64,000 nt of DNA from Cristatella mucedo (lineage: Eukaryota > Bryozoa > Phylactolaemata > Cristatellidae), in the NCBI GenBank assembly GCA_009760855.2, contig WPIO01000177.1:454501-518500 (forward strand), in the 5' to 3' direction. This document shows, piece after piece, positions 2,837 through 55,800 of the stretch. Under the pieces are notes generated by a model. The model did no database searches. It was not told where the DNA came from and saw nothing but the letters and a program-made list of their open reading frames with translations. The translations under genes and the position numbers were made by a program. How positions within the stretch are numbered: position 1 is the stretch's first letter; every line of letters starts with the position of its first letter.

Positions 2837-3267
2837 AAAGCCATCTCGAAGACTGGAAACATGCTCATCGCCATTATTGATCCTCGCCGGATTCTACTGT
2901 TCTTCTCCAAATCCTCGACTGAAGGTTATGCTTCTACTGTGAATGTCGCTCAGGCACTACGCCAGCAGCAAGCTGAAGTTACGGTATCAGCACAGCAAAG
3001 TGTTGAGCTGCATTCAGCTAAATTGCTTACTTCTGCATTGCCAGGTCGAGGCAGCGCCCCGCTTCTTGCTTCGTTATTTACAGGGGCACTCGACATCGGA
3101 CGAGATACCTGCCATTTTGACGTGCGACCTCAAAATCGGCGATGAGATCCATCGTTCGTGCTAGCTTCAGGGCCAATTCTTTCCACTGATACGTATGTCG
3201 GATTTCGGGCGTATACCCCAACCGGAAATTTGAAAAAGTCACACGTCACCCTCAGCCATCCTGATTT
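2837..3267. other. No confident gene
   Basis: A 94-codon open frame on the plus strand (2861-3145) begins MLIAIIDPRRILLFF, but it has no family motif and no splice support. I see no other feature here. Confidence 0.4.
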
Positions 3268-3480
3268 TAGATGTAGTATTAATTAATTATTCCGGTATTC
3301 CTTCATCCGATAATGTTTACTGCTCACCCTACTTATTTAGATGTAGTATTAATTAATTATTCCGGTATTCCTTTATCCGATAATGTTTACTGCTCACCTT
3401 ACTTACTTAGATGTAGTGTTAATTAATTATTCCGGTATTCCTTCATCCAATAATGTTTACTGCTCACCTTACTTACACCT
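3268..3480. repeat. Three tandem copies of a 70-bp unit
   Basis: The block ATGTAGTRTTAATTAATTAT begins at 3271, 3341 and 3411, exactly 70 bp apart. Each unit continues through TCCGGTATTCC and GTTTACTGCTCACC. Only a few substitutions separate the copies, so the array is recent. The units contain no open frame and no spacer sequence. Confidence 0.9.
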
Positions 3481-10115: not shown

Positions 10116-13100
10116 CTGCAGCAACATAGAAGCAACCGTCAGGCCTGCGTCTTGCTGCTCTACGACAAGCAGCACAGCCACAAGTCCGACATCTATGGAC
10201 TGCAAGTGACAAATAGAGCTCACCTTGAACCGTACGATTTCTCCTCTATGCCTTTAAGAGTGTCTTGCAGCGAGCTGACAAGGATTTTGCACCTGTCATC
10301 ATTGGCGATCTTCGATTGCTTTATCAACGAGATGGCAGTCACGAGCGTCTCGATGGCACTGGCAAACTCACCTAGGGATAAACACAGGCCGACGAATGCA
10401 TGGCAAATGTGAAAGAAAGCACGACCCGTGGGATGCGTGAAGGTAATAACAAAGCTCGAGGGATGATGCAGTTCCTAAACGGACTAGAGTGGTCGAGTCG
10501 TTCTTACTAATAACACACTTGATAAAACACCCTCAGAGAACTCAATCTCTTTCTAGGCGTTTTACATTTGCTGCAGAGCAAACACGGTCGAACGATTAGT
10601 GGTAGCATGCTCAAGAAACACGAATAATATGGTTAGGAGTGACGTGCACAGGGTCGGCATGCAAGTGTGGTTAGTGGCAACATGCACAGTGTCAGCATGC
10701 ATAAGCACATGAAGGACAAGTAACAGGGACCCACTACATGCTGTAATAAATAGGTGCGTTTATAGTTTCTTTTTAAATGTGGTCAAGTCAGTAGATGCCA
10801 TGACGCAAGTCGGGAGTGAGTTCCAGGCTTTGGGAGCATACGAACTAAATGCACAGGCTCCAAAGGATTTGAGGTTTGTATGAGGTACAGGTAAACAGTT
10901 AATTCCGAAAGCGGGTGGTACGATGCTTAGCCTGGTGGGGCAGTAGATCTGATAGATAGGCTGGAGCCAAAGAATGAAGGGACCTAAAAGTGAGCGACAA
11001 AACCTTGAAGTCAGAGCCAGTGCAGGTCGGCGAGAAGTGGTGTAATGTGGCAACTGTGACGCTCACGACAGACAAGCCTAGCTGTGGAGTTTTGCACCAG
11101 CTGCAAGCGCCTGATTGCACATGCCGGTAGGCCAGCAAGCAATCAGTTGCAGAAGTTGAGACGGGATGTCACAAATGCCTGGACCAACATAAATGCGGTA
11201 TCCCTGTCTAAACAAGCCCGAATTTTAGGAATGTTATGTAGATGAAAACAGGCAGACTTGATTGTGGAGCTGATCTGGTCGTCTAACGAAAGGTCATTTT
11301 GGAACATGACACCTAGATTTCGTGCAGATTCAACAGGAAATATGCTGGCAGAGCCATTTATGCAAGCAAACACATCGCAGATGCAATCAAACACATACCG
11401 GAATCAGCACATAACAGACACATACATTCTCAACTAATTAAAATAAACAGAGCAGCCCGCGAGTAAAGTTCGAGTCATTCAGACCATGAATCTAGTACTA
11501 CCACTGTATGTTATCAACCAATCCGACTTCAAATCGTCAGGCAATCGATATAGCGTATTTGCACGAACCCAACTAAACTTTCGACAACTCTCGGCTAGAG
11601 GGAAGATAGGTACCATTGACAAACCAAGTGTGCTAAGCTTGGAGGGTGGCAGCAGATGCAGCCACAGCCGAACAGTAAGCCCAGGCATGAAAACAGCATG
11701 GCAGACTACACAAACCCAGCGATTTTAATTCCTAGCTGATTAAACAGCCTCTTTTTGTATAGCGACAGAAGAGCCTTTACGGCTATCACCACCGCTTGCA
11801 GTGGCGATATAGAATCGCCCACTGCAGGAATCGAACCCACGACCTCGGGACCGAGGTCGTGAAAGCAACCGCCTTACCTAGTGTGCCAGCGATCACCTTA
11901 TTGGCACCATTTACAGAATTTCTGCCAATGACTATCACAAATGCTTTGAACTCACCGAGATGATGAAAAATGACCGGCAGCCTAGATGGGCTTACTTCTT
12001 TCCCCTGCCTCTCCTTTTAGTAAAATAAATTCGTTCACCCTCCTACTAGCACCTGCGCTGGCCGGACTGAGAATTTTTCGTTAAAAGACACACTAGGTGA
12101 GCCGTGATGGCATACTAGGTAAGGCGGTTGCTTTCACGAGCTCGCTGCCGAGGTCGTGGGTTCGAATCATGCAGTGGGAAATCATTTATTGCTGCTGCAA
12201 GCGGTGGCGATAGCCGTACAGGCTCTCCTGTCGATATACAAAAGAGGCTGTTGAATCAGCTAGTGTTAGGCCACAGCTGCTTCTCCAATGGACCACGGTA
12301 TTTATTAATTTCAATCAAAAAAGGCCAACCGTGCGTCAGTCCGTATGATACCTTTCATGCTGCAGGAGATACATACTATTAGTATTTATTTATTTACATG
12401 TATATATGCCAATTCCAATCCCATTTTGGTTATCGATGCTTATCTAGAACCGATATTTTTCTAAATAGCTCGTGTACACTTAACTGGCTTAGCCAAAATG
12501 TCGATAGCTGACAAGTCTGGTAACCCAATGGCGTACCTACTAGTTAGGGATGCTTGAATCACCTTGATAGCTAAGAAACCCCCAATACACCGGGAAGGAA
12601 GGCTGAGGCCGATAACACAACGATGGCAGGCAAGATGGAAGTGAGAAAAATTAATGCAGCTAAGACGGAAAGCAGGACAGGCATGCAGGTATTGATGGGA
12701 GGCTGAAGAGATAGGAATAAAAACAAGAATGGGGACATTCTGGGAAGGCACGAATAAGTGGAGAAAAGCAAAAAATCGTCATCAGTAGGAATGCAAGATG
12801 CAGCAATGAAACAGAGCTGAAACCAGATTCGTAGCCCATCGAACTGGCCAGGACTGCAAGAACAAAAGACTAGTGATGATTGCTACATGTTAAGTACATA
12901 AGATCCGGTCACTATAGCCTACCTGCACTGGCATCCTGAACAGCTCGAGAGATTGCACTGCTTGAGACTGACTTATTGCGTTGAAAAATCTCATCAAATT
13001 CTTGATCACTCATTACTGGCTGTGATTCAATTCTACAAGACAAGAAATTTTAGTGCAAGTGGGCCGTAAAGGAAACAATGCGAGCAGTTAAAGGATGAAC

Positions 13101-24200: not shown

Positions 24201-27200
24201 CACCTGAGACCCTGTGACTACGCAGGGGACCTCGTGGTATGCTCACCAGATGGTTTGCCTCATTAGGAGTGACACACTAGGTAAGTCGGTTGCTTTCACG
24301 ACCTCGGTCCCGAGATCGTGGGTTTGAATTCTGCGGTGGGCGATCCTTTATTGCCGATGCAAGCGGTGGTGGTTGCCGTAAAGGCTCTCCTGTCTATATA
24401 CAAAAGAGGCTGTTGAATCAGCTAGGGTTAGGCCACAGTCGCTTCTCCCGTCGACCACGGTATTTATTTCTTTCAATCAAGAGAAGCCAGCCGTGCTTGC
24501 CGTCAGTCTGCCACAATCTTAGTACCTATGGTTCCTTTCATGTTTCGGGAGAGGGCTTGACGCTGCCGTTATATTGACAATGTGGCATTGGCAGGAATGG
24601 GCAGGCGTGTTTCATTGGGTGCCAATTTGAAATATCAGTAATCTGAGGACATACGCTTCTATTGTCTGAGGTAAGTAGCTAAACTCGCCTGACAGATTCT
24701 ATTCCCACCCTCCCTGTGGCATGTTGGTCCTGGCTGGGGTACCCTAAATAATTGCTGGTGTCAGTTGTATGGTTTTAGCATTTTACCTTTGTTCTAACAT
24801 GATGCTACCTCAATTTCAACTCTCCTAATCGCAGCTGGTTCTTTTTTTGGTAGCTACTGAAGGCTAGCTGCTTCAAGTGCAAGCAACTGCTTGTACACAC
24901 CGTCAAATCTCACTTCTTGCTGAAATCGTTGGAACTGCTGGATTCGGGTCTTGCCTCAGCAATCGATGGTCTAGAGGATGTTTACCATAGTGGACTCGGC
25001 ATTGGACCCTTGGACGTCAAGGAGAGTGGCGAAGAGAGAATAAGTGTCCAGTTTAATAAAGAGCAAGTTATCGAGGAGCTCAATGCCTACGTTGAGCTCG
25101 CAATCACCGGTAAGTCAGATGCAAGGTCCCTTCATTGCGTGATCTCCAGAGAAGCTGTGCTTCGTATGGTTGCTGCTGTGTAAAGATCACCTTGGTTGGC
25201 AGACAATATGAACACTAAGTAGTACGGCAAACCCAATTTTTTTTTATTGGAACCGTGTAGACTGCTGCTTGCCAATGAGCACGGAGGAGAATGCCAAACA
25301 TTGAAGAGACTTCTTCTCAATCACTTCTCTTTCTCTCACGAAGGATTTTACTGCAACATGCTAAAATGAACAAGCACAAGCCTACCCGATGATTTGTATT
25401 GTACGCCCAGGCACAAACCTTGTTTGTGATGAGTAGTAGGCACACAATCACGAACTAGGTTACACTAAATAGGCCTAAGCACAAAGAACGAATGCACCCA
25501 ATTAATAGTGCCTTTCACGATGGGTCTTTCATAAACCAGTGCACGTAACACAAAGTCACAAACCAGTGCACGTAGCATAAAGTATCAAAAGAACCCGACC
25601 TTGATCGTTAAGGTTCATTTAGAAATTCGAGACCAACGATTTTTAGGCACCATGAACATGACTGCATTGTCCGTTTTTGGATGTACTTCGACATGAATGG
25701 TAGAATGAAAACAATGCACCGGTTATGTTCATTTTCTAGCCTTAACGAAATCGCCAATGGGCATGCCTTAAGACCTTGTAGTTGACTGCCTTTACAAAGG
25801 GTCAAATGTGGGCTTTGCACAAAATGGGACTAAACAACCTAGCAACTGCTAAATGAGTGCTTATTGGTGAGACTTCGATGAGGTATAACCTGAAGAAGGT
25901 TACTACGACCTGTCTCGTGGATAAAGTAGAGAGATACCCCGACACAACTTCCTGGCAGCAACGATGACAGGAGTGTCACTGCATTAGTGCTGCTTCATCT
26001 ATCAGCTGCCTTTGACACCATTGATCACGATATCCTACTTGAACGATGGAGAACAACGATCGGTCTGGCCGACGACGAACTGGCATAGTTAAACTCATAC
26101 TTTTCGATCGTGTTCAATCCGTGTCGTGTGGGGGTCAGGTTTCAGCCACCTGACTAGTCACCTGTGGAGTCCCCTAAGGGTTTGTCCTCGGTCCTTTGTG
26201 GTTCTGCATTCATACTCAACCTCTGGGAAACGTGATTCAGGCCCATGGAATAAGACATCACTTATATGCTTACTTATTACTTATTACTCTGCTGTATTTG
26301 TCATTTAAACCGTCGGAATCTGCTGCGGCAACTGCACAACTAAATGCTTGCATTGCCGACATTCGATCCTGAATGTTGGCAAATTTTCTTAAACTAAACG
26401 ATGATAAAACTGAACTCATAGGACACCCTAAGTGTGTGGCTGCACTAGAAGGCATTGGTCTTCTAGTAGGTGATGCTGTTGTGTGACTATGACCATGTGC
26501 TCAGAATTTAGGAGTTGTCTTTTGACAGCTGCCTTCATTTTCAAAGCTTCGTGAAGAAGGCTGCTTCTACAGCTAGCTATCACGTTCGATACCTATCCAA
26601 GATTAGGAGCTGTCTTCCACGGTGGCTTGCAAAATATTTAACTAGCTCCTCAGTTCTGTCTCGGCTAGATTATTGTAATTCTCTTTTGGCTGGGCTAGCA
26701 AAAAAGCCACTAGGCCACTGCAGCTGGCTATAGCTATCGCTGAAGAGCTTGTTGCAAATCCCAGAGGTTTGACCGTGTGTCTGCTTTGCTAAAAGTTAGG
26801 ATGGCTGCCGGTTGATCAACAGATACAGAGCAAAGCTCGTATGCTGACCTAAAAGGCCTGCCACGGCTTGGCTACTTCATACGGCTGTACCTATCCTAAA
26901 CGTCTGTACCAGTTTCAACCTCCTCGTGCCTTCAGGTTATGCATAGGCAACAAACTAGCTGTTCCATTCCTCTGCTTAACGTCCGTTAGTGACAGAAGCT
27001 TTTGCTCTGCAGGCTCTAGACTATGCAACTCACTTCCACAATTCTTACGCAACGATAGCTAATCTCTTGCTGCCGACTATGGCACATACTTTCCAGCCGT
27101 GCTAAGCTGTTACTTCCATAATACTCACTACCTCAACTGCTTTCCAGACTCAGCTTCTGACTTTCTCTTGGTTTCGTGAGATGAAGTGTGTTGGCTACCT

Positions 27201-30200
27201 AATGCATATAAAAAGCTCCTTGGGCTGTGATTGCTATTTACAAAACTCTCCTGTGTAACATCCACGTAGTCTTTGTGGAGCTACAGACGGAGATACATTA
27301 CGTTATATTACCCGGCCGATATGTGACTATACCCACTAGGATGCACTGATAAAGAGTAAATAGGCATCATTTCATTCCTTCGAGGGTTCATTAGCAAAGT
27401 CCTGCTGCTACTGGTAAGATGCGATTAGGGTGAGCCGTGATGGCACACTAGGTAATGCATTTGCTTTGTACGACCTCGGTCCCGAGGTCGTGGGTTCGAA
27501 TCCTGCGGTTGGCGATCCTTTATTGCCGCAGCAAGCTGTGGTGATAGCCATAAAGGCGCTTCTGTCGCTATACAAAAGAGGCTGTTTAATCAGCTAGTAT
27601 TTTTTAGATGTCGAAATAAGCATTTCGTGTTCACTCGGAATTCGCAAAAGAAGCCACTTCTGTCCGTCAATCTTCCAGTAGCTAGTTTGGAGTTGGCTGG
27701 GGCAAGAGCATACTGGACCCACGGAAACTGGAGCAAGATCGAATTTGGCAATGATTGTAGGTTTGCCATGTTTAGTAACTGAAAATGTATGCAGGGAGCG
27801 CATCGTTTCATCAACTAACCTTTAATTATAATTGCCTTTGAAAGACAGTGAAATTTATCTGCTAAGGGATCTTGGCCTGCTTCTATCGAAGATACCACCC
27901 CCAGATCAAGTCACATCAAGACCTGCCTTAATAGTTGATTTGTATAATTTTCCCTACTTCGCATAGGTAATGCGTACAGAGCGAATCCATACTACCAGGA
28001 TTTGCTGTCCGAATGCTTACACCTGTATGTGGACTGATACTGCATACTGCTGTGACCATACATAGTGTGTAAATTGTTCTGGTAATCAGAGGGTTTTCCA
28101 CAATGCCAGGCATATTATAGTTATTCGGAGCATGTGAAAATCTTTGTCGACGGCCCAAAAATAAACAAGTATGCTGTTGCTATATGTGCCTGTGATTGTC
28201 GTCCTACCATAATTCTTTATTACCTCCCTTGTTTGGCTAGGCATAAAGGCCACAGTCTTTTGGATTGTCTCTTCTGCTGGTGTAGGTCAAGAGGTCAAGC
28301 AATCTGCTTCAGCCGCCTGTCCCCATCGCACCAGTCTTTTTATGGGGTTCAAATAGTACGACTGGCTGGGCCACTGCATCTTTACAAAATAAGGATTCGT
28401 TAAAAGGTACTTCACTGACCTAGCAGTATGCATAGGGTGGTTATCTTGCTGCCAAATATAAAGACACCCAAGCAGAGTATTTGAGATTTGAAATCTAACT
28501 TGCTTGACCAAGAATAACTTGAGTAAAGCACTTTTTTGTTGAATCTTGTTAAGGGCTTCTGTTGTGGCTCAACAACTTGCCTTATTTGAACCTCTCAGTA
28601 TGAATATGGAGCGATATCGACAGGCAGCTGGGGCAGGTGTTAGGCCTACATCAGTAGCTGACCTGTTCAGTAAATCTCAGGCTGGAATGTGCCCTATCCA
28701 GCAGAAGGGAAAATCTAGAAGCCGGTGGCCTTTTTGCCAGGCCAGATAAGGCAGATCGTCAAGAATCACAGTGAGACATCACAGTAAACTCATACATACC
28801 AGCACGCGTTATATGTTTTTGGACTGTCAAAAAATATTTCCACGTGCTTAGCATAATTGTAGCATGACCGGTATCATTGAAAACCGCCTGATTCACCGAA
28901 CGAATTTATAGCCATGGCGGCTGTTGCCACGCTGCGAGGATTTTTTGCGACTAGTGTATTAATGCAGGCAGGAATATAGTGCATAGCATATTGGTGAACT
29001 TGCACGTGCATCCACATGCAAACGTAACTGACTGGTGGATGTGTCAGTCACAATGCAGTCGGATCGGGGTGACTGGTCTAAATAGAAAATCTTCACCTTA
29101 AATTCAACGTGTTTACTGTGAGATTCCGGCATTAATAGTGGTTAAAGAAGATATGATTGAGAAAGTGAGTGCTTGCTAACTTGGACACTGGTTTATGGCG
29201 GCAGAGACACAGGTAACTCAGTTGTGGTGAGCCCCTCCACAAGGCAGGACCTTTCTTTGCTCCGTCCTTGATGTATCTCCATTGCAGCTGTTGGCAAGCT
29301 GCGATAGCCCACTAGGTTAGGCGGTTGCTTTTCGGCCTCGGTCCCGAGTTCATGGGCTCGAATCCTTAGGTGGGCGATCCTTTATTGCCACTACAAGTGG
29401 TGGTGATAGCCTTTAAAATCGACTGGTATTTTTTATTGTGACTCGACAGTGTTAGTTGTTTCAAGTAGCTGATAGTGGTTAATTGCAATTGCACTCATCG
29501 CGTTGTTGGTTAATCAAGTGCTTGCTGTCAAAGAGCTTTTTTCCTACGCTCGCTAAAGTCACTTTTTGTCATACTTGTTCATGCCGCATAGGTTTTGAGA
29601 ACATTCGTTGCATTTTAGAGGCCAGAAGAGGAACTGGTGACATCCTAGTATCAGACGACCGTGCTATTAGGCACACCATAAGCACACGACGGAGTCTGAT
29701 CGAGGAAGTGCAGACTTGTCAGTTTAGACGAGAACCTCGCCAGTGTGGCCACTGCTGCTTTCCCGTGCGCAAAATGCGCGCCGAGAATTACTGCAAGATT
29801 TTCTTCGGCGAGGCGGTCTCGCTCAGGCGGCTTCAGAATGCTCAGAGGGGCACCAGGTGAGGCACCCGTCGCGTGCATGCGAGAGAAGTACCTCCGGTTG
29901 GAGGTTATTTCTTTTTTTTTTGGTCCGTTATCGACTGCCGCGATTAGGAGGGCTTGCTCAGCCATTCGATCGTTCTCCATCCTCCAGACGGGAGGAAAAA
30001 AGCACGCTCTCAGTGCTACGAAAGTGCTGCACTTCCAAAGCAAAGTGCTGCACTTCGGTCGGCCCGAGCTACTTGTATTTGTAAATAATAAATAAATCCT
30101 AGCTGATTAAACAGCCCCTTTTTTTGTATAGCGACAGAAGAGCCTTTACGGCTATCGCCACCGCTTGCAGTGGCGAGAAAGGATCGCCCACCACAGAAAT

Positions 30201-33200
30201 CGAACCCACGACCTCGGGACCGAGGTCGTGAAAGCAACCACATTACCTTGTGTGCCGTCACGGCTCACCAAAGTAGTCGAAGCTGGTCCAGGAGCAGCTT
30301 TGCAAATTTGACCCGTGCCTGTGGGCACTTCTTCAAGCGACCCCGAAATTTCTTCTGATACGCGAATTTAATCCTAAGTTGCCCATAGCTGTCACCTGTC
30401 CGTAAAAAGAGTCGCTTGGTTTAGCCGTGTGAACATGCTTTGGACAGTGTTAATTTGCACGGTCGTCTGTAATTAATTGAAAAATAGGCTGCAAATTGGA
30501 TGCAATTCGAGTAGTAGACGAGATTGTTTACATGGAGATCGCCGGCCTGCAAGCACCTTCTCGAATGGAACCGGAAAAGAATTGTTGAGGTTATTTGAGC
30601 CGGAAATGATTTTTAGCGGTTTCTTTGGCATCTCTTTTGCTGCCCTCACTTTGTTGTCATGACGCTGGCAGCAGCTTAGCTTGACGTACCTTCGACGCTG
30701 AGCCGCACTCTCGACCGACTCTCGTTTTGTCTTGTGTTGTTGCTGCCGATCAGTTGTGCGACTGTTGCAGATTGTTGGTGGTATTTGCATTAACATTTTT
30801 TGATCGGTCGCATCACGTGGCTGCTCCTGTAGTGCATTATAGGGCCTGGGCTGCATACATATTCTGAGGCAGCTGTGCAGTCGAAGCAGCCTTGCAGTCT
30901 AGCCATGCTTTTGTCCTGGTCGCCTCACTTTCTCTCTTCGTCGTCCTTCGAGCTGTCATACGAGCTAATGCAATACGGTGCTGCACTGGGTCCTCTTGTC
31001 ATTGATCAGCAATAGTCTATCCCAGATCCCAGTCGTCTCCGTCGGAGCACTGGTATGGGCTTGCTTTTGGTCGGATTGGTGGCATAGGTCTGTGATATTC
31101 CCTTTGCAGCAAATGTAAAGCGCCTAGAAATAGATTAAGTTCTCTGAGGGCGCTTTATGAAGTGCATTATTGTTATTGTTATTATTAAATAGGTCGATGC
31201 TTTGGTCTGGCCTCCATGCTGCCTCCGCTGCGGCCGGTGCACTGGCTGTTACATTTATTTGTGGCGCATATTCTGCTTATTTCCAGAGAAGCCGAGGGTG
31301 AAGAAGCCGAGATTGTTGATGACGAGCTGGCCGACTACGAGGAAAAAGATGCCGAGCCGAGGTGGGTGACACGAGAGCACTGCTCGATGGGGACTTTAAT
31401 AACGTGCCACTTCCACGGGACAAAGTTATCATGTGGGTAACGACCGGCTCAGCGTCCGATAATATGGACTTTAGATAAGAAGGTTAAATAACTTTCTTCC
31501 AAGTCTGCAGACCCCGGTACTTCAAAACCCTTCGGTGTCAGATGGTGTCTTCATGCTAAAAACGTTCCATGATGTATCTGTGAAGGCAGTAGTGCCCTCA
31601 TGGGAGCCTAGTATTCAGTTCCAATCGGATAGCACGTCCTTGACCCATGTCGTTCGTCGAGGGAGGCGGTTGCTGTTTCAGTGCCTGTGCAAGTACCTGT
31701 TTCCGAGTGCTATACTATACTATACACTTTAGTGCAGTACATTTAGCATTTACATTTAGTCATGGTGCCTATATGCAAGCATGCTAGTGTGCATGCGTCT
31801 GCACGTGTTTCGTGTATCAGTGGCGTACTAAATGCAGTGGCATAAAGCCACTTCATAGTTACATTGCTGTCAGCTGTGCTGTACCTCATGCTCTACTTGA
31901 AGTGAGGAAGGAAAGGTTGGTTTTGAGTCAGGGATTCTTAGGCGCCTGGCACCCTGATAGCCCAAGAGGTAAGGTGCTCTTCACGACAAAGGTCGTGGGT
32001 TCGAATCCTGGTGTTGGGCGATCCTTTATTGCCAACTGCAAGCGGTGGCGATAGCCGATACGGCTCTTTTGCCGCTATAGAAATGAGGCTGTTAAATCAG
32101 CTAAGATTTTTAAGGGCCCTGATAGACCAGGAGGCAAGGTGCTCCCTCTTCACGACCCAGGTCATGGATTCGAATCCTGCTGCGGATGATCCTTTATTAG
32201 CAAACTGCAAGCGGTGGTGATAGCCTTCAAGGCTCTTCTGCTGCTATACAACAGATGCTGTTAAATCAGCTAATTTAATTTCTTTATATTATTTTCGATC
32301 GGTACAGATTACTGGAAGTAGGGCTTCCCAAACAATAGTAATATTTATAATAGTAGTTGTAATACAACATTTGTATAGCGCCCTAGAACTAAGCCTCGGT
32401 CTTGTCCATTTCACATATCACATGTTGAAAGGGAAGCCGGTCAAGTGGTCGCTGATAATATGCCCAGTTTCAGCATGCAAAAGCACACGCAAACGGTTTA
32501 TTCCCGGTTGAGCAAATGCTGGGAAGAACATATGGGTTTTAAGCCTCTTTCTAAATGTCAAGTCAGGGGATGTGATGACCTAAGACGGGAGTGAGTTCCC
32601 GGCTTAGGGAGCATACGAACTAAAGGCACGGTCTCCAAAGGATTTGATGTTGGTTCGATGCACTGCAAAACTACTTGAGCCGGAAGAGCAGGTCACATGA
32701 TGAGAAGCCTGATGAGGAAGTATATCCGATGGGTAGGCTGGAGCAGGAGAAGTAAATATCCTACACGTGAGTGAAAGGCCCTTTGGTTGATACTCTGCTG
32801 AGCGGTAGCCAGTGCACATCGATGCTGAATGGTAGCCAGTGCACATCGATGAGAAGTGATGTAGCAGTTTTAACGTTCGTGAGAGAGAAGCCTACCTGCA
32901 GAATTTTGCCCCGACTGAGCGTTATATCGAGTAAGTAGAAGATACTGGGAGCACTGAGTTACATTAATCTAGAGTGATGTCACAGATGCATGAATCAGGT
33001 GGATTGTAATACCCTGAACTAAGCAGTCTAGCATTTTTGCATTGGTTCGTACCTGAAAGTGTGCAGGCTAGTGAAAGGTCACTTTAAAACAGGACAACCA
33101 GATTGCATTCACACTCTACAGGAGATAAATTCTGGTCGAGTCCATTTTGAGGGTTTGGCTTTCCAATTTCTCGTTGACACCGGGTTTCCCCACAACTAGC

Positions 33201-35573
33201 AAGTTTGTTCTAACTTCATTCAGTTTGCAAAACTTTGCTGCCATTAAAGTCCGAATGTCGGCGATACATCCTGTGAGGGAGCTGAGTACTTGATGCTCTG
33301 GAAGGCAGGGAGCTATTAACGCACGGTTGCAGCTACGTGTCGTCTGCATAAGAATCGAAGCCTAGATTGTGCTAGGCGATTACGAGTCAAGAGGGAAAGT
33401 AGACATTGTCAAAGTGGATCAAGCACAGACCCCTGGGGTACCTCATACTTTGAAGACTTCCCGGTTGACCGTGGGGTGTTCACATCTACACTCTGAAATC
33501 TGCTACTGAAGTGGAATGCAAACCATTCTAGTGCAGTGCCTGTGATTCCCGGCAGAGATGCAATGATGATAGGCGATCAAGGGGAATGTCAAGAAAATAT
33601 CTATACAATTTGTCCGAAAATCAAATGTGTGTTTATGGTACCTTTCGAAAGACAAATATGTTAGAACTGAGATCGGAAGTTCCGACGACATCTGCGCGAA
33701 AGAAAAATTGGTTATGCCAACCACGTTTAACCCGGATGTAAACTGGAAGCAACGAATCTACAAATGAAAAATTTACCGATCTCTGCATCGTATGCGACTT
33801 GTATCCCAACTTGTCGAATCTTGCTAGATCGCGATATATGCTTGAAGCTTGTTGAGGTGCATTCTTGTGACTTCTATACAGCTACATTTCCAGGGTTGGG
33901 TGGTGCCTTGTAAATTAAAAAACTCAAGTGATACTTCACGTATCGGAGTAAAATTTGAAATGCGAGTCCAGCTCTACTTGTTTGACCCTAGTCTTTAATA
34001 TTTTTGGATTTCGATCTGATACATATGGTTCTGTATGTCCACGATTACGGAAAATAAAGCTCCAGGACGTTTAATGGCGTATACAGCCAAATTTATCCAA
34101 CCGAAATTAAAAATATTCCAGACTAGGGTAAACAGAAAAAGCAGAGCTGAACTCAAGTTTCATACCGATTCGTGAAGTATTAGCCGAGTTATGGAATTTA
34201 CAAGGCACCAACCAACCCTGGAAATGAAGCTGTATAACAGTCACAAGAATGCACCTTAACAAGCTTAAAGCATCTATAGCGGTCTACCAAGGTTCGATAA
34301 GTTGGGATACAAGTCGCATACGAGATCGCAGAGATCGGTACATTTTGCATGTTGCTTCCGGTTTACATCCAGGTTAGGTATGGTTTGCATAGCGAATTTT
34401 TTCTTTCATGCGGAAGTCAGAACTTCCGATCCCAGTTCGAACATATTTGTCTTTCGAAAGGTACCATAAATACATATTCGATTGTCGGACAAATGGTATA
34501 GGTATTTTCTTGACTTCCCCCTTAAGGAGTCTGTGATCAAGGCATCTTACCCTGCCAAGATTTCCAACAGAGCTTACTTAGAGGCTCCAAGTCAGCGGTC
34601 CTTAATTAAGGTTGGTACACTTGCATCAGTGGCAAAAATGTGCCATGTGAATAAAGTGGTATGTGGAGTTAGTACGAGAGTAGCCTGGTGTGTAAACACG
34701 CAACTGTTTACCCTTCTGCGCCATTGGGGTGGGTGCCGAGAGCTGCTCGATAAGCTGGATAATCGAGTACCACCTGACCGACTGAGGAGGTTGAGCAGGC
34801 ATTATTTGTTGCATGACCCCGAAGAGTGCATGCCGCGGTCTTGAGGAACTGCGTCCACGGCCGAAATTCAGGCTCGACAGCAGGCAAGTCCCCATTCCTG
34901 TGAGATTAGGCGGTAAATGCGTTTTGCAGACCGGCATTTGTGCTCGGTTCAACCGCTCTATGCCAAGCTGAAATTTAGCACCTCTTGTTGCACTAAACTA
35001 ATCTCGCTTTCCTCGGCATTTGCTTCGTTCGGGTGAACTGTCCTCTGTATGCCTACTTATACCGGCACCGAGCGGCTTGCCAATTGATTATCTTCCTTTC
35101 TAGGGTATGCAAAGTGCCTGGAAAGAGATTTAGTTGTCTCCGGGTGCTTTGCCGTAGTTTTACTTTTTCTTAGTTTTGTAGCATTTGTACCCACACCAGG
35201 GCAATGTGAGAGCCAGAAAATGCAACGGTGCTTAAGCTCCCAGAGTCAGAGTTGTCCTAACCGAGAAACGTCCAGTAACCATTGATGTGGTTTGGCTCAC
35301 GCTTTGCTGCTGTCAGTAGCATCTGGTGGCACTGTTCGTTGAGAGATTGTATGTATTAATAATAATACTAGTAGTAGTGATGACGATAATCAAGGATGGT
35401 TGGTGAACCATGATGGCACACTAGGTAAGACGTTGCTTTCACGACCGAGGTACCGAGGTCCAAGGTTCGAATTCTTTGGTGGGTGATCTTTTATCGCTGC
35501 TGCGAGCAGTGGTGATTGCCGTAAAGACTCTTCTGTCGCTATACAAAAGAGGCTGGTAAACTGCTAAATCAGC

Positions 35574-46851: not shown

Positions 46852-49800
46852 CGCGCAAACAATGTCCACTGATATATGTGCATCCTGGTACAATGGCAGT
46901 TTGATATGCAACTGTTGGGCTAAAGGTTGTCTGAACTATCGGAATACAATAACTTGGTACAATGTTTAATAATATGTATGGAGCTCTTGTAAATGTAGTC
47001 CTAGCCCAAATACGTGATGCTGAGATTGATAACATAGGCAGATCCTGTTCTGGTGAGTTTATAGTGGTCACGAGTTGACTAACCTCAGAAAAATAATCGA
47101 TCACTTCTTAATTCTAATAGGCGTGGATTTTTCTAGCCAGCACCATGTATGATGCTGACGTAAGAACCAGACCCAGCAATAAACATGCTGACCTCTGACC
47201 TCGATGTCCTCGTGTGCAGTCGGCTTGCGTCCGTCCGTATCGCCAGCTTAGGAACTGTTTCGTGCTGCTTCGACCCTGCGGAAATGATGCCCGGTTACAC
47301 TGGCGCCGCACTCTTGACGTTTTTTGCATGCAGACGTGGCAGACCAGTTCCGGCCACGAGCAGGCCGCGCCCGACGATCAGCTGATGTGCGAGAGTGAGG
47401 TGATTATCCGGCAGGGAGAGCTGCTGTGCGGTGTGCTCGACAAGAACCACTACGGCGCGACGCCTTACAGCCTCGTGCACTGCTGCTATGAGCTGTACGG
47501 CGGTGAGACCTCGACCCGCGTGCTCACCTGCTTCGCCAAGCTCTTCACTGCGTTCCTGCAGTACCGCGGCTTCAGCCTGGGCATCGAGGACATCCTCGTC
47601 ACCAAGGAGGTACGGCCGCCCGGTTCGAGCTCGCTTCGCTTGCCGCGTAAGCCCTCTCGCGAGAGCGCTTTTCGCTGCACCCAGCGCGGCCCCTTAGTGC
47701 CACGTGACCATGCCCAGCTTGAGTGCAAAGCAGCTGGCCGACGGCTGTGCGCAGGCGCATCGAGGTTTCGCCGAGGTTTCGGTTTGGGCTGCCATCGTTT
47801 CTTCAGTGAGCTCTGTGGAGCCTTTGCGCCTAGCCCGTGCGTCCGAGGCAAGATGGCAAGCGATCGAGTGCTTTCGCTTTGTGGTGTGTGTCACTCGCTC
47901 GATTCGCTGCGGTCGTCTACAGCCCATCTGGTCACCGTTTTTTGCTATAGGCTTTTGAGCTCGCTGCAGGCTCCGGCAGCGTATTCACTCGATGCCTGAG
48001 ATAAAACTGTGCATGTCGTGCCTGCCGCCGGCATAGAGCTTTGACCTGCCATCTCGATTGCGGGTTGTGCTCGCTTTGAGCCCTACAAAAGGAAACGCAC
48101 GGCCCAGTGGCTGAGTCGTCACACCCGCTTCACTGCAGGCCGACCGGAAAAGACATCACGTGATGAGGCAGGGCCGCAAGGCCGGCTTTGCGGCCCTGGC
48201 CGCTGCTCTCGGCAGAGCGACCAGCAGCGACAGCTCTGCCGGAGCCTCTGCTGAGGACGTGGCGGCTCACTATCGTGCTGCCCAGTTCGCTTCCGATGAT
48301 GCCGAGATGCGCGCGATCGATCGAGCCCTGAAGGGCGCCACGGACGAGATCCAAAATCAGATCACAAAGTATGGTCGATAAGAGACGTTTTGTGCTGGCG
48401 CGTTTTTTTTTGCGCCGCCACACTGTGCCATTGCTGGCAGCTGGTGCCTAATGCTCGGCCTTGCCTCCACTACTAGTCCCTTCCTCTCTGTAGCCTCTAG
48501 CCACCGTCCACTGCACTGCCGTGATCAGTTGTTCCGCTACGTCCTGCTGGCTGACCTAGCCGCACTTGCTTTCATGGCTGCTGTCGGTGGATGCAGGTGA
48601 AGTAGTTTTTGCATTTCCTTTAGAGTCTGTATGCCACTGGGCTTGCTGAAGAAGTTCCCTCATAACAACCTTCAGCTCATGGTCCTCTCGGGTGCCAAAG
48701 GTTCTGCTGTAAGTTTTCTGTGTGTGCAGCTGCATTCGTAGCAGCCTAGCTATTCGCCTGCCGGTTTCTCTTGTGGGCGCATGCGCCGCGCCGCCGCCCG
48801 CGCCCCCCCCGTAGGCTCGTTCGTCATTACCCGCTGGCTTTGGTGAATGACCTTAGGCCACATTCTCCTCTGGGCATTAGTTTTGCTTACAATTACCCGA
48901 TACAGTGATGAGGATACCGATTGGTCTATTTACTCTCTGGTGTATTGTAAAAGCTTTGTATGCCTGCCAATTCTTTGCTCGATGGCTATGACATTGTCAT
49001 TTCGTTCAACGTGCTGCATCTGCTGGCTGCTGTCGGTTGGGGTGAGGGATTATAGGCCTAGTGACCAGGGGTGCGGCATCCTTTGATTTAAGCGTTGGCA
49101 TACACAGTGCAGTTGCAAGTGGTAAGCCTAGCTCGACCAGGTGTTTGTAGCTTGCGTCATCTGGTGGCTAGCCTCCATTCGCAAGAATTACTTTCTGCAC
49201 CAAAAGTCGAGTTAGTTCGAACGTTTGACGAATGCGGCGGCCCAGTTATTATAGTCACTCTCGAATTGCCGCTGACTGTAAAGAGAGTGCCCGCGGTGGA
49301 GCAGGCACCGCAGTTGCTCTTCCGGGCGTCTTGAGAGTCGTTTGTTGCCGTTTGTAGGTCAACTGCATGCAGATCTCTTGCCTGCTCGGTCAGATGGAGC
49401 TCGAGGGTCGCAGGCCGCCTTTGATGCTCAGCGGGCGCACTCTGCCATCGTTCTTGCCCTACGATCCTTCCCCGCGTGCTGGCGGATTTATTGATGCCAG
49501 GTTTCTGACGGGATTAAAGCCCCAGGAGTACTTCTTCCACTGCATGGCTGGAAGGGAGGTGCGTGGAGCCACGGCGCAGCCATGCAGCAGTTTCTCTGGC
49601 ACGGGCAGCGAGCCGGTTTCACGCCTGTGCAGCTTTGCTAGCAGCGTTGCTGCCGTGCTGCTGCTGCTGCCCTAAAGCTGTGCTCTCGCGGTCATAGTTT
49701 CCCTCGCCCGATTTGTTCTGCTAAAGGCACACACTGGCAGCCACAAGTGTTGTCGCACATCACAGTTGGCGATTTGCAACACTTTAGTGCAGTGGTTCTC

Positions 49801-52800
49801 AATCTTCCTAATGCCTCGACCATTTAATATCAGTTCCTCAAGTTGTGGCGACCCCCAACCATAAGATTATTTTCGTAGCTACTCTACTTCATGCCCGTCA
49901 TACGATGCATGTTTTCCAATGGTCTTAGGCGACCTGTGTGAAAGGGTCGTTCGACCCTCAAAGGGGTCTCGACCCACAGGTTGAGAACCGCTGCTTGAGT
50001 ACAAGAATGAAGGTATATGCGCTGTTGCAATTGACAACGTAGGATTACTTTTCAATTTAAAACCAAAACACACAAGCACAATAAGGCCTCCGTCCGAGAG
50101 AAACATGATGAAATTTTGGGTCTTTTGACCTAAAAAATAATTACGTAAAGGCGTGGTACAGTCACAATTAAGGATCGGGCGATGTTCGGGATCGGTGATT
50201 CGAGGTTGATATCTAGTCATCGTTGCTAGCCGGGTTTAGAGACTCATGTCGATCAATGGCAATTACAATCTGTGCTCTTAGTGTCACTTCCGCGGTGCAT
50301 ACTCGAGAACAGGGCCCTGTTTAGGGAGTTTAGCTTTAAACATCACAATATTGACGTCTTTCTTCTATTTCTTTAGTAAACAAACTCAAGAGTTGTTCGT
50401 TATTTGCTATTCCAAGTTCCTATACATCTTCATGATATATTCGAGATTATGCTTTGAGCATAGAAATAAAATCTGCCTGGCCAGTTTTGCCTGTGACAAG
50501 ATGGTTAAACTTGTAGCCATAGTTAAATGCGATGGCTGATCTCTGGAAGCTTTCACAATATGCAATGAGCAATAGCACGGGCTTTTTTTAACGTAAGCCT
50601 TTCTAACCGAGACGCTACATAGACTCACAATGCTGTACCTTTTAAATCTTGTGGTGCATCCTTGGCTGGAGATTTCACAAATTTACTCGGAGAGGGGAGT
50701 ACAAAACAAGAACAGTGATCGACATCTGCCTCTAAACACAGCCAGCTTAGATGACGATACATTTCTTGTTTTCGGCACACTTGTGTGCCTGCATAAGACT
50801 CTCACTGATCCAGAATATCCCCTGCTTGCTCTGCGCTATCGGATTCCCTGGGCCTAACACCGGTGTAGGGCTTAAGGAGCCATAGTTTTCCGGCTTTTCC
50901 TGCATGGAGGACACACACATTGCCTGCTCACTTTGATTTAAAGCTAGAGAAGTACTATTCCAGGCTTCATTTGGGGCTTGTGCCTTTAAATTTTGCAACA
51001 ATCCGTCACTTGGTGCTAATCTGTGGTGTGGCACCACTTACGACCAGACTTGTGTAGTGTTATAAATGCAGCGGCCTCTGCACGAAGTCCTCGGACCACG
51101 TGTGTACACGGCACTGAGTACACGGCGATGATAGCCGTGCTGGTCTCTACCGACATATGACAAATACTGGCAAAGTTAGCCTCTCGAAGTGCGGCTAGCG
51201 ACTGGCATATGCTGCCTTGATACATGAAGGTAAGCCGACTATGATAGAGCACGGCAGCTTTAAAGAGAGGACCTTGATATATAACAAGTCTGTGTCCTTG
51301 GTGAACAACAGCCTGTCACAGTCACAGAGGGTTGCAGCTGTCCAGCACCGGCCTTAGCATGTAACTCACTTGAAAGCCCAAAGAACAGCTGACTGACTAA
51401 TACCCGATTTTAGCTTTTTATGCCGCCTAACTGTAGATTATGGCTTAGCTACTTCCAAATCATTTTAATTTAGGAGCCGCAAATAACATCTAGGTCGTCA
51501 CAATCGGGCCGGGTTCAGGTCATCAGCACTTCACTTGGCTGGAAGCACGCGAGTACTTTTAGCTTCAGCTCTTTTTCAATCAATACCTGAACCGACCTCA
51601 AAACTAAAGCACGATTAAGTGTACACGACACAGGAAGGGGGCCATCATTCATGTACTGTTGCACAATTGATTGCGCCTTATCATCATGTTCATCCCTGGC
51701 ATCGTTTTGCCAATCCAGTCTTGTCTGCCTTATATTCAGTTAGATAGTCTGTGGGCAGGTGTGCTGGACAGCATCCAACAAATCTCTTAGCTGAGCATAC
51801 ACCCACTGGCAGACTGTTGAATGCTGTGAACAATTAATTAAGTCACTGTGAATCAAAGTTCAATCTATTTGCTTTTAAGATAGGTCGATTCAGCCGCCAT
51901 AGCATGGTTGTAACTCCCGCGGCTGGTTGAAATGCAAAGGAATGCTGACCACGGCATTTGCCGATTTGAAATCACAATGTGGCATCGTCATTTGACATAT
52001 AGAATTCTCACCATAGTAGAACAGACACCGTCAACTCTCTTACTGAGTAGTGTAACAGCCTGTCCAACATCAGAGCAACAGTCCGTAACCTCGAAAGTTT
52101 GCACAGTAGCAGTCTTGAAGCAAGTTACAGCAGTCACAGTCACTACAGTGTATTACCAGGCACAGGAAGAACGATCACCCTTTTTTATCGCATCATCAGT
52201 CTGTAGTACCAGAAACCTGCAATTTACAGCAGCAGCCGGTCTCGTGCTTAGCTATAAAATCATAGACTTGGACATCCTAAGCCATAAATAAGATTAACTA
52301 ATTTCAACACGTTGAGCTTCAACCTTGGCCTGTACACGTGATCACCTTTGACATATTCTAGATTAACAGTGGTAAGCCACGCCTGCTGCCGTCATTTGCA
52401 TAATTAAGTTCCAGCTTAGTAGCAGTCTCAGCCTAACTCTCGGCAGACTGGGTGGCCTTGACATTTTAATTTAGATGTCACCAACTTTTGCTTCATGCAG
52501 AAAGTCGTATATACACACTAAGCTGGTGTATAAGCTTATCGGTTTCCCGAGTGCAATTTTTTTTAGATGTGTTTCATCAGAACCTGAGTTCTGTTAATAC
52601 TGTCCTGAGGACTGACCATAGCTAACTTTCATCTTACACGTGCAATCCCCATGTCCGTGATTGTTGAGAGTGAGTGTGTGAATATCTATGCTAATGCTTC
52701 TCGTGCAGTTTTTGCTGTATTAGCCAATTGTGAAGCCCATGGAGGTCTGAGTTGCTCCAATGGTGGTGCCCAGCAAGCTAGTCCTGCGAGCTAGTATTCC

Positions 52801-55800
52801 TGTTGCAGCGCTTGCCTACAGATTCCTTCGGTTGTTTCGTTGCTCCCCTTGCTGCCTTTTGGTTCATAACTTACACGATTGCCGTTTTTTTTAGTGCCAT
52901 GCCCTTGTTTTTGGCCACTCTCCCTCGTTTTGAAATTGCTGAATCCCAGTTTTTTTAAGGGCTTGGTCGACACGGCCGTGAAAACGAGCCGCAGTGGCTA
53001 CCTGCAGCGCTGCATCATCAAGCATCTGGAAGGCGTCATGGTCTCCTACGACTTGACCGTCAGGGACAGTGACTCCAGCATCATTCAGGTTGAGACAAAA
53101 ATCTGCATTCTTGTCGTTGACATGCTGCCGATGTGTGTGCGTGTGTATGTGCATCCGTGTAAACAGTAGTATGCGTACCTTGCTTGCATCATCTGATAGC
53201 TTTAGCCTCGATCGGTATGAATTCCATTCCTGCTAGAGTATCACCGGAGCAACTTCGGGTGGCTGTAAACTCGACGAAGCACTTGCCGCTGGCCTATGTT
53301 CCGGTTGCCTGGTCTTGGCATTTTGTCATCCTCGGGTGTAATCCAGTATGCCCACATAGCCCATAGAACCATTGAATGTGTGTGCGCAGGGGTGTTTGTT
53401 TAGGTACGTGCAGGAGTGCTGGCAATGTGCCTGCATGGACTTATGCCTCTATTTTGTCTCTTAGTTCCAGTACGGTGAAGATGGCTTAGAAATTGGCAAG
53501 ACACAGTTTCTCAAGGAGAAGCAGTTTCCTTTCTTGATCGAGAATCAGACCGTTGTGTTACGTGATGACGAACTAGATCAAGTGAAGAATGCAATGGATC
53601 TGAAGAAAGCAGCAAAGCACATCAAAAAGGTGGGTGTGCATGCCTGCAGTCTCGGCTGGGGCAACGACGGTGTGGTGGTTGGGGTGCCAATGGCCATCTG
53701 CAGCAACAGACGGCAGCCGTGCGAGCTCGCTGCCCAAGCCGCCGGCTTGTTGACGGCTTCCGAGACGATGCCGCGGTGCCTTCATTCTAGGTGAGCCGCT
53801 CGAAAAGGAAGGGGCGACCATGCGGCAGCAGGCAGGCGTTTCCATTTTTAATCTACAACAACAGCGAGTGGCCGCAGACACTGGCAGCAGTGCAGCCTAT
53901 CGCCGACGGCCACCGGGCTGCCGATGCACAGAAGGTTATCTCGGCCTACAGGAGCCTGGGCGATGACGAGATCAGCAGGTGCGCACTCACTCCCAACCCC
54001 CCCCCTTTCTCTGGCCCTTGCTACTCGGCTGCTCCGTCAATTCGGTTCAGCCAAGCGCCTGAGCCAGCATTTGTCCGGCCGCACGATCACGCCGTTTGCC
54101 TTGCTGGAGGGGAAGAAGAGACTGCGCTCTTCGTCACCTTGCAAAAATGAGCGCCGATCGACGCCCGTGTATCTCTATTTGTGCCGCGAGCGAGCTCTTC
54201 CGGCACGTCCGGCGCTTCGTCCGATCGTAGCAGCGCGAGTTGCTCTTTTTTCGCCTAGATTGAGCGAGCTATGCCAGCCGGCGGCGCCAGTCATGGCGGC
54301 GTTGAATCCTCTCCGCTACTTCGGCTCCATACCCGAGAAGCTGTCCGACATAGTTGCGAGCTACACCCAGCGCAATCCGCAGAACGTAAGCGTGTGCGCG
54401 CTCGCAGCACCTCCGGCAAGGGGACGGGTGACCTTGAGCTCGGCTCCTGCTCTCTGTGTGCGTGGTGCTCGTGTGTGCTGCTCGTGTGTGCGTGGCGCTC
54501 GGGCGGGCAGTCGCCAGTCGTCCTGCGCACGAGAGCTCCTTCGTGCCAGCGCTTCACCTTCTCTTGCCGCTCGTCGTAGCTGATTGTCACCGAAGACGGT
54601 GAAGCCGCCGTCAGCCGTATCTCAGCGCAGCGGTTTCGTTCTCTGATGAACCTTCGCTGCCTGCGCTCCCTGGTCGAGCCAGGAGAGGCCGTCGGACTGC
54701 TGGCCGCGCAGGTACAGCAGCTGCAGCAGACGACGCTCGGTCGAGAGAGGGGCCGAGGAACGAGAGCGCACTTGCAGAGTGCCGCGTGAGCGCTGGCTGC
54801 GTTCGAGCCTGCCCGCCCTGTCATCGACGTCGTGCCCCTGCTCTGCGCTCTGCTCTGTGTGAGTGTCTGTGGTTTGAGGACGACACGCCTTTGCCTCGTT
54901 GACAGTCCATCGGTGAGCCGTCAACGCAGATGACGCTCAACACGTTCCACTTTGCCGGTCGAGGCGACATGAACGTGACGCTGGGCATCCCTCGACTGCG
55001 AGAGGTGCTCATGGTGGCCAGCGGTAATATCAGGACGCCGACCATGGAGATTCCACTGCGCAATCCTTCGAGCAAGCGCGCCCGTCGTCGCGCTGAAGCC
55101 CTACAGCGGCGTCTCTGTCGCGTCACCCTCAGAGAGGTGAGGCTGAACCCCCCTCCTCCTCCCCCCCCCCCCCCCCCCCCCCCCCCCCCGCCGATGCATC
55201 TGCTGCTGCAATCGAGGCAGAACCAGTGCTTTCGGGTGGTATGCATGGTTGGGCTATTCTAGCCGGTCTGTCTGTCTGCTGCTGCTCAACCCCGATGACA
55301 CGTTTGCGTAATTGAAGGTCATTGTGTTTTTTGTTTCTCGGTTGCAGCGATACGGCAAGTCCCGCATCATGCTCGTGGGTTACTGGCCGCTAGATGGGCT
55401 TTCCCATTCCACAGCTGACGCTGTGTCCCCAGTGCTACACTTGATCCTTTGATCGACCAGAAGTCATCGAAGCTCATTTAGAAAAGGAGACAGATGGCTG
55501 GGCCTTTGATATTTCAAACTAGCCTTTCAGCCATATGAATCACCAGCTGCATTTACCTAATAGCTTTTTCGGTAGCTCTACCAAAATAGATGAGCATGTT
55601 CTCGTTCAAAACGGCAAGAGCGGTTCCATGCGCCAAGTGACGCCGGCGGAGCGTGCTGAACGCTTGTGCTTTCACTTGTATACCTACTCTGTATATGGCT
55701 TGTCCTGTTCTCGGAGCTGCCCTGATTTAGGTTTCGGTATCCTTGACCCAATTGTACATGGTTGCATCTTTTCTAAGACGTTTGTGGCCGGAGGTATGAA

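Follow-up and report, generated by a model that had tools for sequence, protein, structure and literature searches.

A probable SPIN-type hAT element in a POLR1A intron of Cristatella mucedo and its genomic family

Does a short element lying within the POLR1A gene of Cristatella mucedo belong to SPIN (SPACE INVADERS), and if so, how did it come to reside in this animal? SPIN elements are noted for spreading across wide evolutionary distances between animals, and DNA movement from one animal phylum to another has few clearer examples. The locus was analysed within a 64-kb stretch of genomic DNA, hereafter the window, in which an original prediction had placed a SPIN-like, possibly horizontally acquired hAT MITE. 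Taking the evidence as a whole, the best explanation is that the window element is a SPIN hAT transposon copy that is dead and has undergone internal deletion, a reading in which we have high confidence.

The window element and its place in POLR1A

The near-perfect 13-bp terminal inverted repeats and the imperfect 8-bp flanking duplication originally described at this locus are borne out (table 1). The location in POLR1A also holds and can be refined: the element is intronic, the exons on both sides match human RPA1, and its orientation is that of the gene (sense). The wider arms of the element (49789-49805 / 49978-49994) show 88% complementarity across 17 nt, and at the exact element spacing a pairing of 15/17 occurs at a single site in the window, the next best being 13/17. 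An inverted repeat alone is not proof of an element, because approximately 1.7 such arm pairs are expected by chance (spacings of 50-400 bp, equal base frequencies); the proof is provided by the copies elsewhere in the genome. At the centre of the target duplication the left copy reads TA, the right copy GA.

As anticipated, the 204-bp body shows no sign of a gene. A minus-strand stop-to-stop stretch of 118 codons (49879-50235) overlaps the element and extends beyond it; nothing supports this stretch as a gene. The window copy differs from its subfamily consensus at 14/198 positions (7%), plus small insertions. This is consistent with the earlier suggestion that the insertion is not recent.

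Table 1. Features of the window element and of the surrounding part of POLR1A.
Feature	Position	Strand	Evidence
POLR1A upstream exon (5' edge approximate), ends ...FFHCMAGRE, then GT donor	49358..49558	+	Pfam RNA_pol_Rpb1_4; human RPA1 E 1.7e-30
POLR1A phase-0 intron GT...AG containing the element	49559..52959	+	sequence, flanking exon matches
Left target-site duplication CTTTAGTG	49782..49789	.	flanking 8-mer
Probable non-autonomous hAT element (MITE) of SPIN type, 204 bp, from subfamily A in the Cristatella mucedo genome	49790..49993	+	sequence, genome copies
Left terminal inverted repeat CAGTGGTTCTCAA	49790..49802	+	sequence
Right terminal inverted repeat TTGAGAACCGCTG, 12/13 complementary to left	49981..49993	+	sequence
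Right target-site duplication CTTGAGTA, 6/8 identical to left	49994..50001	.	flanking 8-mer
POLR1A downstream exon, then GT donor	52960..53088	+	human RPA1 E 4.3e-18; sequence

A large family and its broken autonomous relatives

A search of the rest of the genome, as the original prediction had advised, reveals a large family. In the 572-Mb assembly the core 14-mer GGTCTTAGGCGACC is found at 539 exact places, against 2 for the reversed control, and a first look yielded more than 2,000 candidate copies. From 2,045 such candidates 40 were scored, namely the window copy and 39 others with 75-86% identity. The copies have in common a consensus of approximately 187 bp and occur at differing target sites on numerous contigs, the longest reaching 24.8 Mb. 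They form host-specific subfamilies, whose left ends are preserved over 81 bp in B and over approximately 95 bp in A, and they diverge from the consensus by 5-19% (18 of 20 copies measured, in a sample that leans young). Target-site duplications with at least six of eight identical positions accompany 27/40, 24/30 and 9/20 copies in three samples, several of the last 20 being truncated. Their consensus is CTCTAGAG (n=30 copies), with T at position 4 in 27/30 left and 29/30 right duplications and A at position 5 in 28/30 and 25/30, respectively; the family thus has the TA-centred 8-bp duplication. Being short (187-204 bp), non-coding, bounded by terminal inverted repeats and target-site duplications, and present in high copy number, the family of the window element has the properties of MITEs.

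Autonomous SPIN elements measure some 2.8-2.9 kb and encode a hAT transposase of the Buster branch. Relatives with such an autonomous structure are rare in the host genome and their frames are broken. One relic, L158 (151-3106), is 2,956 bp long and carries the MITE ends at both its termini, with 72/81 matches (89%) to MITE positions 1-81 and 84/95 matching columns, including 2 gaps, to positions 95-187 (88%). Part of its frame, read with X at the stop, hits PF05699, the dimerisation domain of hAT transposases (E 8.7e-05, 22.7 bits, cut-off 21.4), so that the predicted product of L158 is the decayed C-terminus of a hAT transposase. In its length, its MITE-sharing ends and its PF05699 match, this relic has the composition of an autonomous element; its transposase is presumed, from a motif only, to fall in the Buster branch. 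The flanks of L158 match poorly (TGCTAGAG / CACTGACC), and an internally deleted relic, L161, has a perfect target-site duplication, CACTAAAT. Only the left MITE end is seen in L159, where the examined stretch ends before the expected position of the right end, and L160 has no MITE end in the stretch examined. Five of the 40 matches to the 3' coding part of L158, L158 included, span at least 480 bases. Among six relic protein pieces five gave no Pfam match, and no relative turned up in the PDB, the one match being due to chance (E 0.086).

A second hAT family, of hAT-Ac type (L097-L126), is present in the same genome. It is abundant, its 30 examined copies are at least 98.5% identical, and open frames of 635-642 aa occur at 16 of the 138 matches listed. 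This family, found by PF05699, was considered as the driver of the MITE and ruled out, since its right end (GGTACAGCCCTA in 26 of the 29 copies listed) is unlike that of the MITE.

Relationship to SPIN

As provisional reference for all SPIN identities we take a murine SPIN/URR1-type sequence that is not a curated entry. Against this provisional sequence the family consensus is identical at 155/157 terminal positions (79/81 + 76/76), and the window copy at 74/81 and 71/75 positions of its ends and at 169/203 overall. The limit of 75% identity to SPIN set by the original prediction is applied here to this provisional sequence only. The ends of the element, CAGTGGTTCTCAA / CAGCGGTTCTCAA, agree with CAGYGGTTCTCAA, which we take to be the terminal inverted repeats of SPIN. 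The comparison extends to the interior of the relics: 57 bases of the provisional reference lying outside all sharing with the MITE subfamilies match at 80-89% in three relics, with scores of 29-39 against shuffle maxima of 14.5-18 (1,000 shuffles for each relic). The match had been 84-90% before the restriction to reference bases not already visible in MITE copies. Together with the ends, the target-site duplications, the family and the relic, the agreement with the provisional sequence makes the assignment of the window element to SPIN well supported. The original claim that this host carries SPIN or a close relative very likely holds, the name SPIN being tied to the provisional reference.

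The SPIN_NA / URR1-type elements known from murine rodents and further tetrapods have the same ends as the host family, the GGTCTTAGGCGACC and GGTTGAGAACC blocks, a length of approximately 200 bp and 8-bp TA-centred duplications. In contrast, the host subfamilies differ from them in their internal deletion (left ends of 81 bp in B and approximately 95 bp in A) and have a middle part absent from the provisional reference; moreover, the present host, with its mitochondrial code 5, is not a vertebrate. Invertebrate parallels exist. One study reports about 1,000 copies of a SPIN-like hAT in Biomphalaria glabrata and no intact DNA-transposon transposases detected in that assembly (PMC5440852); by description, copies are many and no intact source is seen, as in the host here. 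Unlike that snail, the present host is probably not a heterobranch, judging from its mitochondrial gene order and 21-kb mitochondrial contig. In Rhodnius prolixus, according to a second study, SPIN_NA_12_RP and SPIN_NA_13_RP are non-autonomous SPIN elements in an invertebrate, as here, and are read as horizontal transfer, with a blood-feeding route; piRNA clusters of that species hold fewer than five SPIN copies, whereas the present family is large genome-wide (PMC11614815). Two further papers name SPIN in their reference lists only (PMC5791352, PMC5331948). The literature matches listed contained nothing on SPIN in limpets, annelids, brachiopods or nemerteans, which does not imply absence from print, and six words of the family consensus were not found in the literature searched.

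Most searches of viral contigs, phages, plasmids and prokaryote genomes gave no SPIN-like sequence. Forty-eight places in viral contigs were rejected as chance matches, since with BLAST the window element aligned to them at an E of 0.005 at best. Two places in prokaryotes were likewise dismissed: they have in common a stretch of what looks like a bacterial ABC-transporter gene (named by eye), with 20 identical bases and no full match.

Origin of the family

The ends and duplications, the number of copies, the autonomous relics, the position in an intron and the decay can all be seen directly, and we put forward the following history. An autonomous SPIN of approximately 2.96 kb would formerly have produced transposase in the host lineage, where short derivatives would have kept no more than about 80-95 bp from the left end and 95-100 bp from the right one. 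We infer that SPIN transposase mobilised these derivatives in trans; by cut-and-paste into TA-centred 8-bp targets they would have grown into a large family. One of them would have inserted in the POLR1A intron, in sense orientation, and later decayed together with its target duplication. From what is known of SPIN, the family likely entered the host lineage by horizontal transfer. A more specific scenario, which we judge nearly evenly balanced but leaning slightly against, is that a lophotrochozoan-like lineage, of a phylum so far missing from the list of SPIN hosts, received SPIN by a horizontal transfer of its own, as a full autonomous element. Within this scenario the arrival would belong to the same wave as reached tetrapods, because the non-coding consensus ends differ from the mammalian ones at approximately 2/157 positions.

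Could the family instead be a different hAT-Buster lineage with SPIN-like ends, vertically inherited and outside the horizontally spread SPIN group? Both hAT ends and 8-bp TA-centred duplications are common to the whole Buster branch, and the SPIN identity was measured against the provisional reference and not a curated one. However, the 155/157 identity of the consensus ends to the provisional murine sequence argues against a separate Buster family, as does the match of its interior to the relics. Vertical inheritance is disfavoured because non-coding ends that are approximately 99% alike would be unexpected between a protostome and a mammal, and the 5-19% divergence of the MITE copies (18/20 measured, leaning young) speaks against great age. 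We thus consider this explanation improbable.

Retention of the window copy for POLR1A function, as an enhancer or splicing element, appears very improbable: an insertion that is intronic, sense-oriented and part of a transcribed gene could be put to use, but its 14/198 substitutions and small insertions fall inside the range of the 18 other copies, and nothing in them suggests constraint. The likelihood that a vertebrate or parasite SPIN copy was joined into the POLR1A locus by contamination or misassembly is practically negligible, given the scatter of the copies over numerous contigs as large as 24.8 Mb, the host-specific subfamilies, the differing target sites and the POLR1A exons flanking the window copy; no support for such an artefact was found. 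A decayed SPIN copy, belonging to a family resident in this genome, remains our preferred reading. It adds a further host to the known SPIN story and not a new kind of element, and the definition of SPIN is unchanged by it. With its large family of copies and several autonomous relics in broken form, this additional invertebrate host offers material to date the arrival of SPIN, and the relics themselves offer material for a cross-phylum comparison of autonomous SPIN.

A side observation concerns the mitochondrial contig of the host (C688, 21,008 bp). Judged from COX1 only, its genetic code is code 5, with AGA/AGG read as Ser, ATA as Met and AAA as Lys, which excludes vertebrates and also flatworms. 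A search for PF14830, the haemocyanin domain of molluscs, gave no match, and its control gave none either. The mitochondrial genes, named by eye, follow the order COX3-ATP6-COX1-ND3 ... ND1-ND6-CYTB-ND4L-ND4-ND5, which looks lophotrochozoan.

The window copy and its family

The original prediction described a SPIN-like hAT MITE with 13-bp terminal inverted repeats and an imperfect target duplication at 49790–49993. These 204 bases start with CAGTGGTTCTCAA and finish with TTGAGAACCGCTG; the inverted repeats are complementary at 12/13 positions (88% over wider 17-nt arms), and the 8-bp flanks, CTTTAGTG versus CTTGAGTA, are identical at 6/8. Since about 1.7 inverted pairs as good are expected by chance in 64 kb (any spacing of 50–400 bp), such a pair is by itself no proof of a transposon. 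That status is established by the copies across the rest of the genome; the original observation holds. The exons flanking the element are neighbours in human RPA1, which places it within the phase-0 intron 49559–52959 of POLR1A, coding strand.

In the host genome (572 Mb, 688 contigs; the window is C85:454501-518500), the window copy as query gave 2,045 first-look candidates, of which 40 were scored, namely the window copy and 39 others at 75–86% identity. Their alignment yielded a 187-bp consensus with strongly conserved ends and a variable middle. This consensus as query gave 2,336 first-look candidates, 40 of them scored, and among the 41 matches listed 40 stand at 94–96%. The genome contains 539 exact instances of the core word GGTCTTAGGCGACC, versus two of the reversed control word. 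Because only about one-fifth of copies would retain this word at ~11% divergence, a fair guess for the genome total is ~2,500 copies.

Of the 539 exact-word matches 100 were listed, and 20 of these were sampled for divergence. With L167 and L168 left out, the 18 copies with more than 100 aligned positions have a median K2P distance to the consensus of 0.113 (range 0.052–0.188), in a sample that leans young because an intact 14-mer was required. Scored against two consensus sequences, 8/40 copies, the window copy included, fit subfamily A (198 bp, retaining TTATTTTCGTTGCTACTTCATGCGTGTCATAC), narrowly so for L070 and L077, and the remaining 32 are nearer subfamily B; in the exact-word sample subfamily A accounts for 1/20. 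The window copy differs from the subfamily A consensus at 14/198 positions, inside the range of the sampled copies.

Target-site duplications agreeing at 6/8 positions or more were found in 27/40 copies picked by likeness to the window copy, in 24/30 picked by likeness to the consensus, and in 9/20 from the exact-word list, several of which are truncated. Among the consensus-like copies, position 4 is T in 27/30 left and 29/30 right duplications and position 5 is A in 28/30 and 25/30, respectively; the consensus target site is CTCTAGAG. Elements of the Buster branch of hAT favour such TA-centred targets. Two members of the 40-copy sample, L053 and L054, lie 54 kb apart on contig C653 and share their flanks, apparently a single insertion that was probably copied by segmental duplication rather than two insertions.

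Features of the window
Feature	Position	Strand	Remarks
POLR1A upstream exon	end 49558	+	then GT; human RPA1 match, E 1.7e-30
POLR1A downstream exon	start 52960	+	preceded by AG; human RPA1 match, E 4.3e-18, and sequence
Further POLR1A exons	around 47.2–48.0, 54.9 and 63.1 kb
Inverted repeat, ~940 bp	33581–34520		78.7% identity to own reverse complement
Dispersed ~160-bp repeat	11726–11888, 12096–12334, 24270–24496, 27429–27606, 30089–30269, 31952–32273, 35400–35555	both	about 77–91% identical
Tandem repeat	3267–3476		70-bp unit, three copies, 95% matches

Probable assignment to SPIN and the decayed long elements

For the SPIN comparison we used an uncurated murine SPIN/URR1-type non-autonomous sequence. 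Against this sequence the family consensus matches at 79/81 positions of the left end and 76/76 of the right; for the window copy the figures are 74/81 and 71/75, respectively. The sequence was set down before the DNA of the relics (decayed longer elements of this type) had been seen, but after the MITE copies and the relic protein frames. Past the subfamily B left end it has a 71-nt interior with 84–90% identity to three relics. Excluding its first bases, which are common to subfamily A and had already been seen, leaves 57 nt; these match the three relics at 47/54, 48/54 and 43/54 positions (80–89%) and score 29–39 versus shuffle maxima of 14.5–18 (1,000 shuffles per relic). Such an uncurated sequence is a lead rather than a reference, but one arrived at by chance would not foretell an interior unseen as DNA. 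We assign the family to SPIN with high confidence, and the original SPIN reading is very likely right.

A hAT C-terminal motif, likewise uncurated, has 77 matches in the genome, and the four best-scoring places (L158–L161) were fetched. The MITE left end is present in L158, L159 and L161 and the right end in L158 and L161, the L159 stretch being too short to reach its position; neither end was found in the fetched stretch of L160. Relic L158:151-3106 (2,956 bp) matches the MITE consensus at 89% over its first 81 bases and 88% over its last 95, and encloses a broken transposase on the opposite strand; its flanks match poorly. L161 is internally deleted (1,123 bp) with a perfect duplication, CACTAAAT. 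Stops interrupt the reading frames of L158, L159 and L160, and the hAT dimerisation domain PF05699 was above cut-off in one of six relic protein pieces scanned, the other five giving no Pfam match. With the 3' coding part of L158 as query there were 40 matches, five of which (L158 itself included) span at least 480 bases. The relics examined included no intact transposase source. They show that the genome once held a full-length element, whose short, internally deleted derivatives multiplied.

Origin of the family

A cut-and-paste hAT transposase from autonomous SPIN copies would have recognised the ends common to the short derivatives and inserted them at TA-centred 8-bp sites. Horizontal transfer, as originally proposed, is the likely origin of the family in this host, which is a new host record for SPIN unless already listed. 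In Biomphalaria glabrata, a SPIN-like hAT is reported at about 1,000 copies, in an assembly where intact transposases were not detected (PMC5440852); Rhodnius prolixus is reported to have obtained SPIN from tetrapods (PMC11614815).

Other repeats and the mitochondrial contig

The host mitochondrial contig reads with code 5 and carries the block ND1-ND6-CYTB-ND4L-ND4-ND5 (genes named by eye), an order that looks lophotrochozoan-like. A search of the host genome for a molluscan haemocyanin domain found none, the positive control being equally silent. This 21-kb contig (C688; L095, L096, L127) has long repeated stretches and a second copy of part of ND3, and COX1 fragments occur on contigs C166, C83, C549 and C299; these represent either duplicated mtDNA or nuclear copies.

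Within the window, the ~940-bp inverted repeat is a possible foldback element, and the dispersed ~160-bp repeat is possibly a SINE, although ARAGORN found no tRNA gene in the window. The genome also holds a second hAT family, Ac-type by eye (L097–L126, e.g., C111:3177004-3177240 and C85:169054-169290), which looks recently active. Identity among its 30 fetched copies is 98.5% or higher, with a median of 99.3% over more than 800 nt; 16/138 among the matches listed have open frames of 635–642 aa, and the right end GGTACAGCCCTA is common to 26/29 printed copies.
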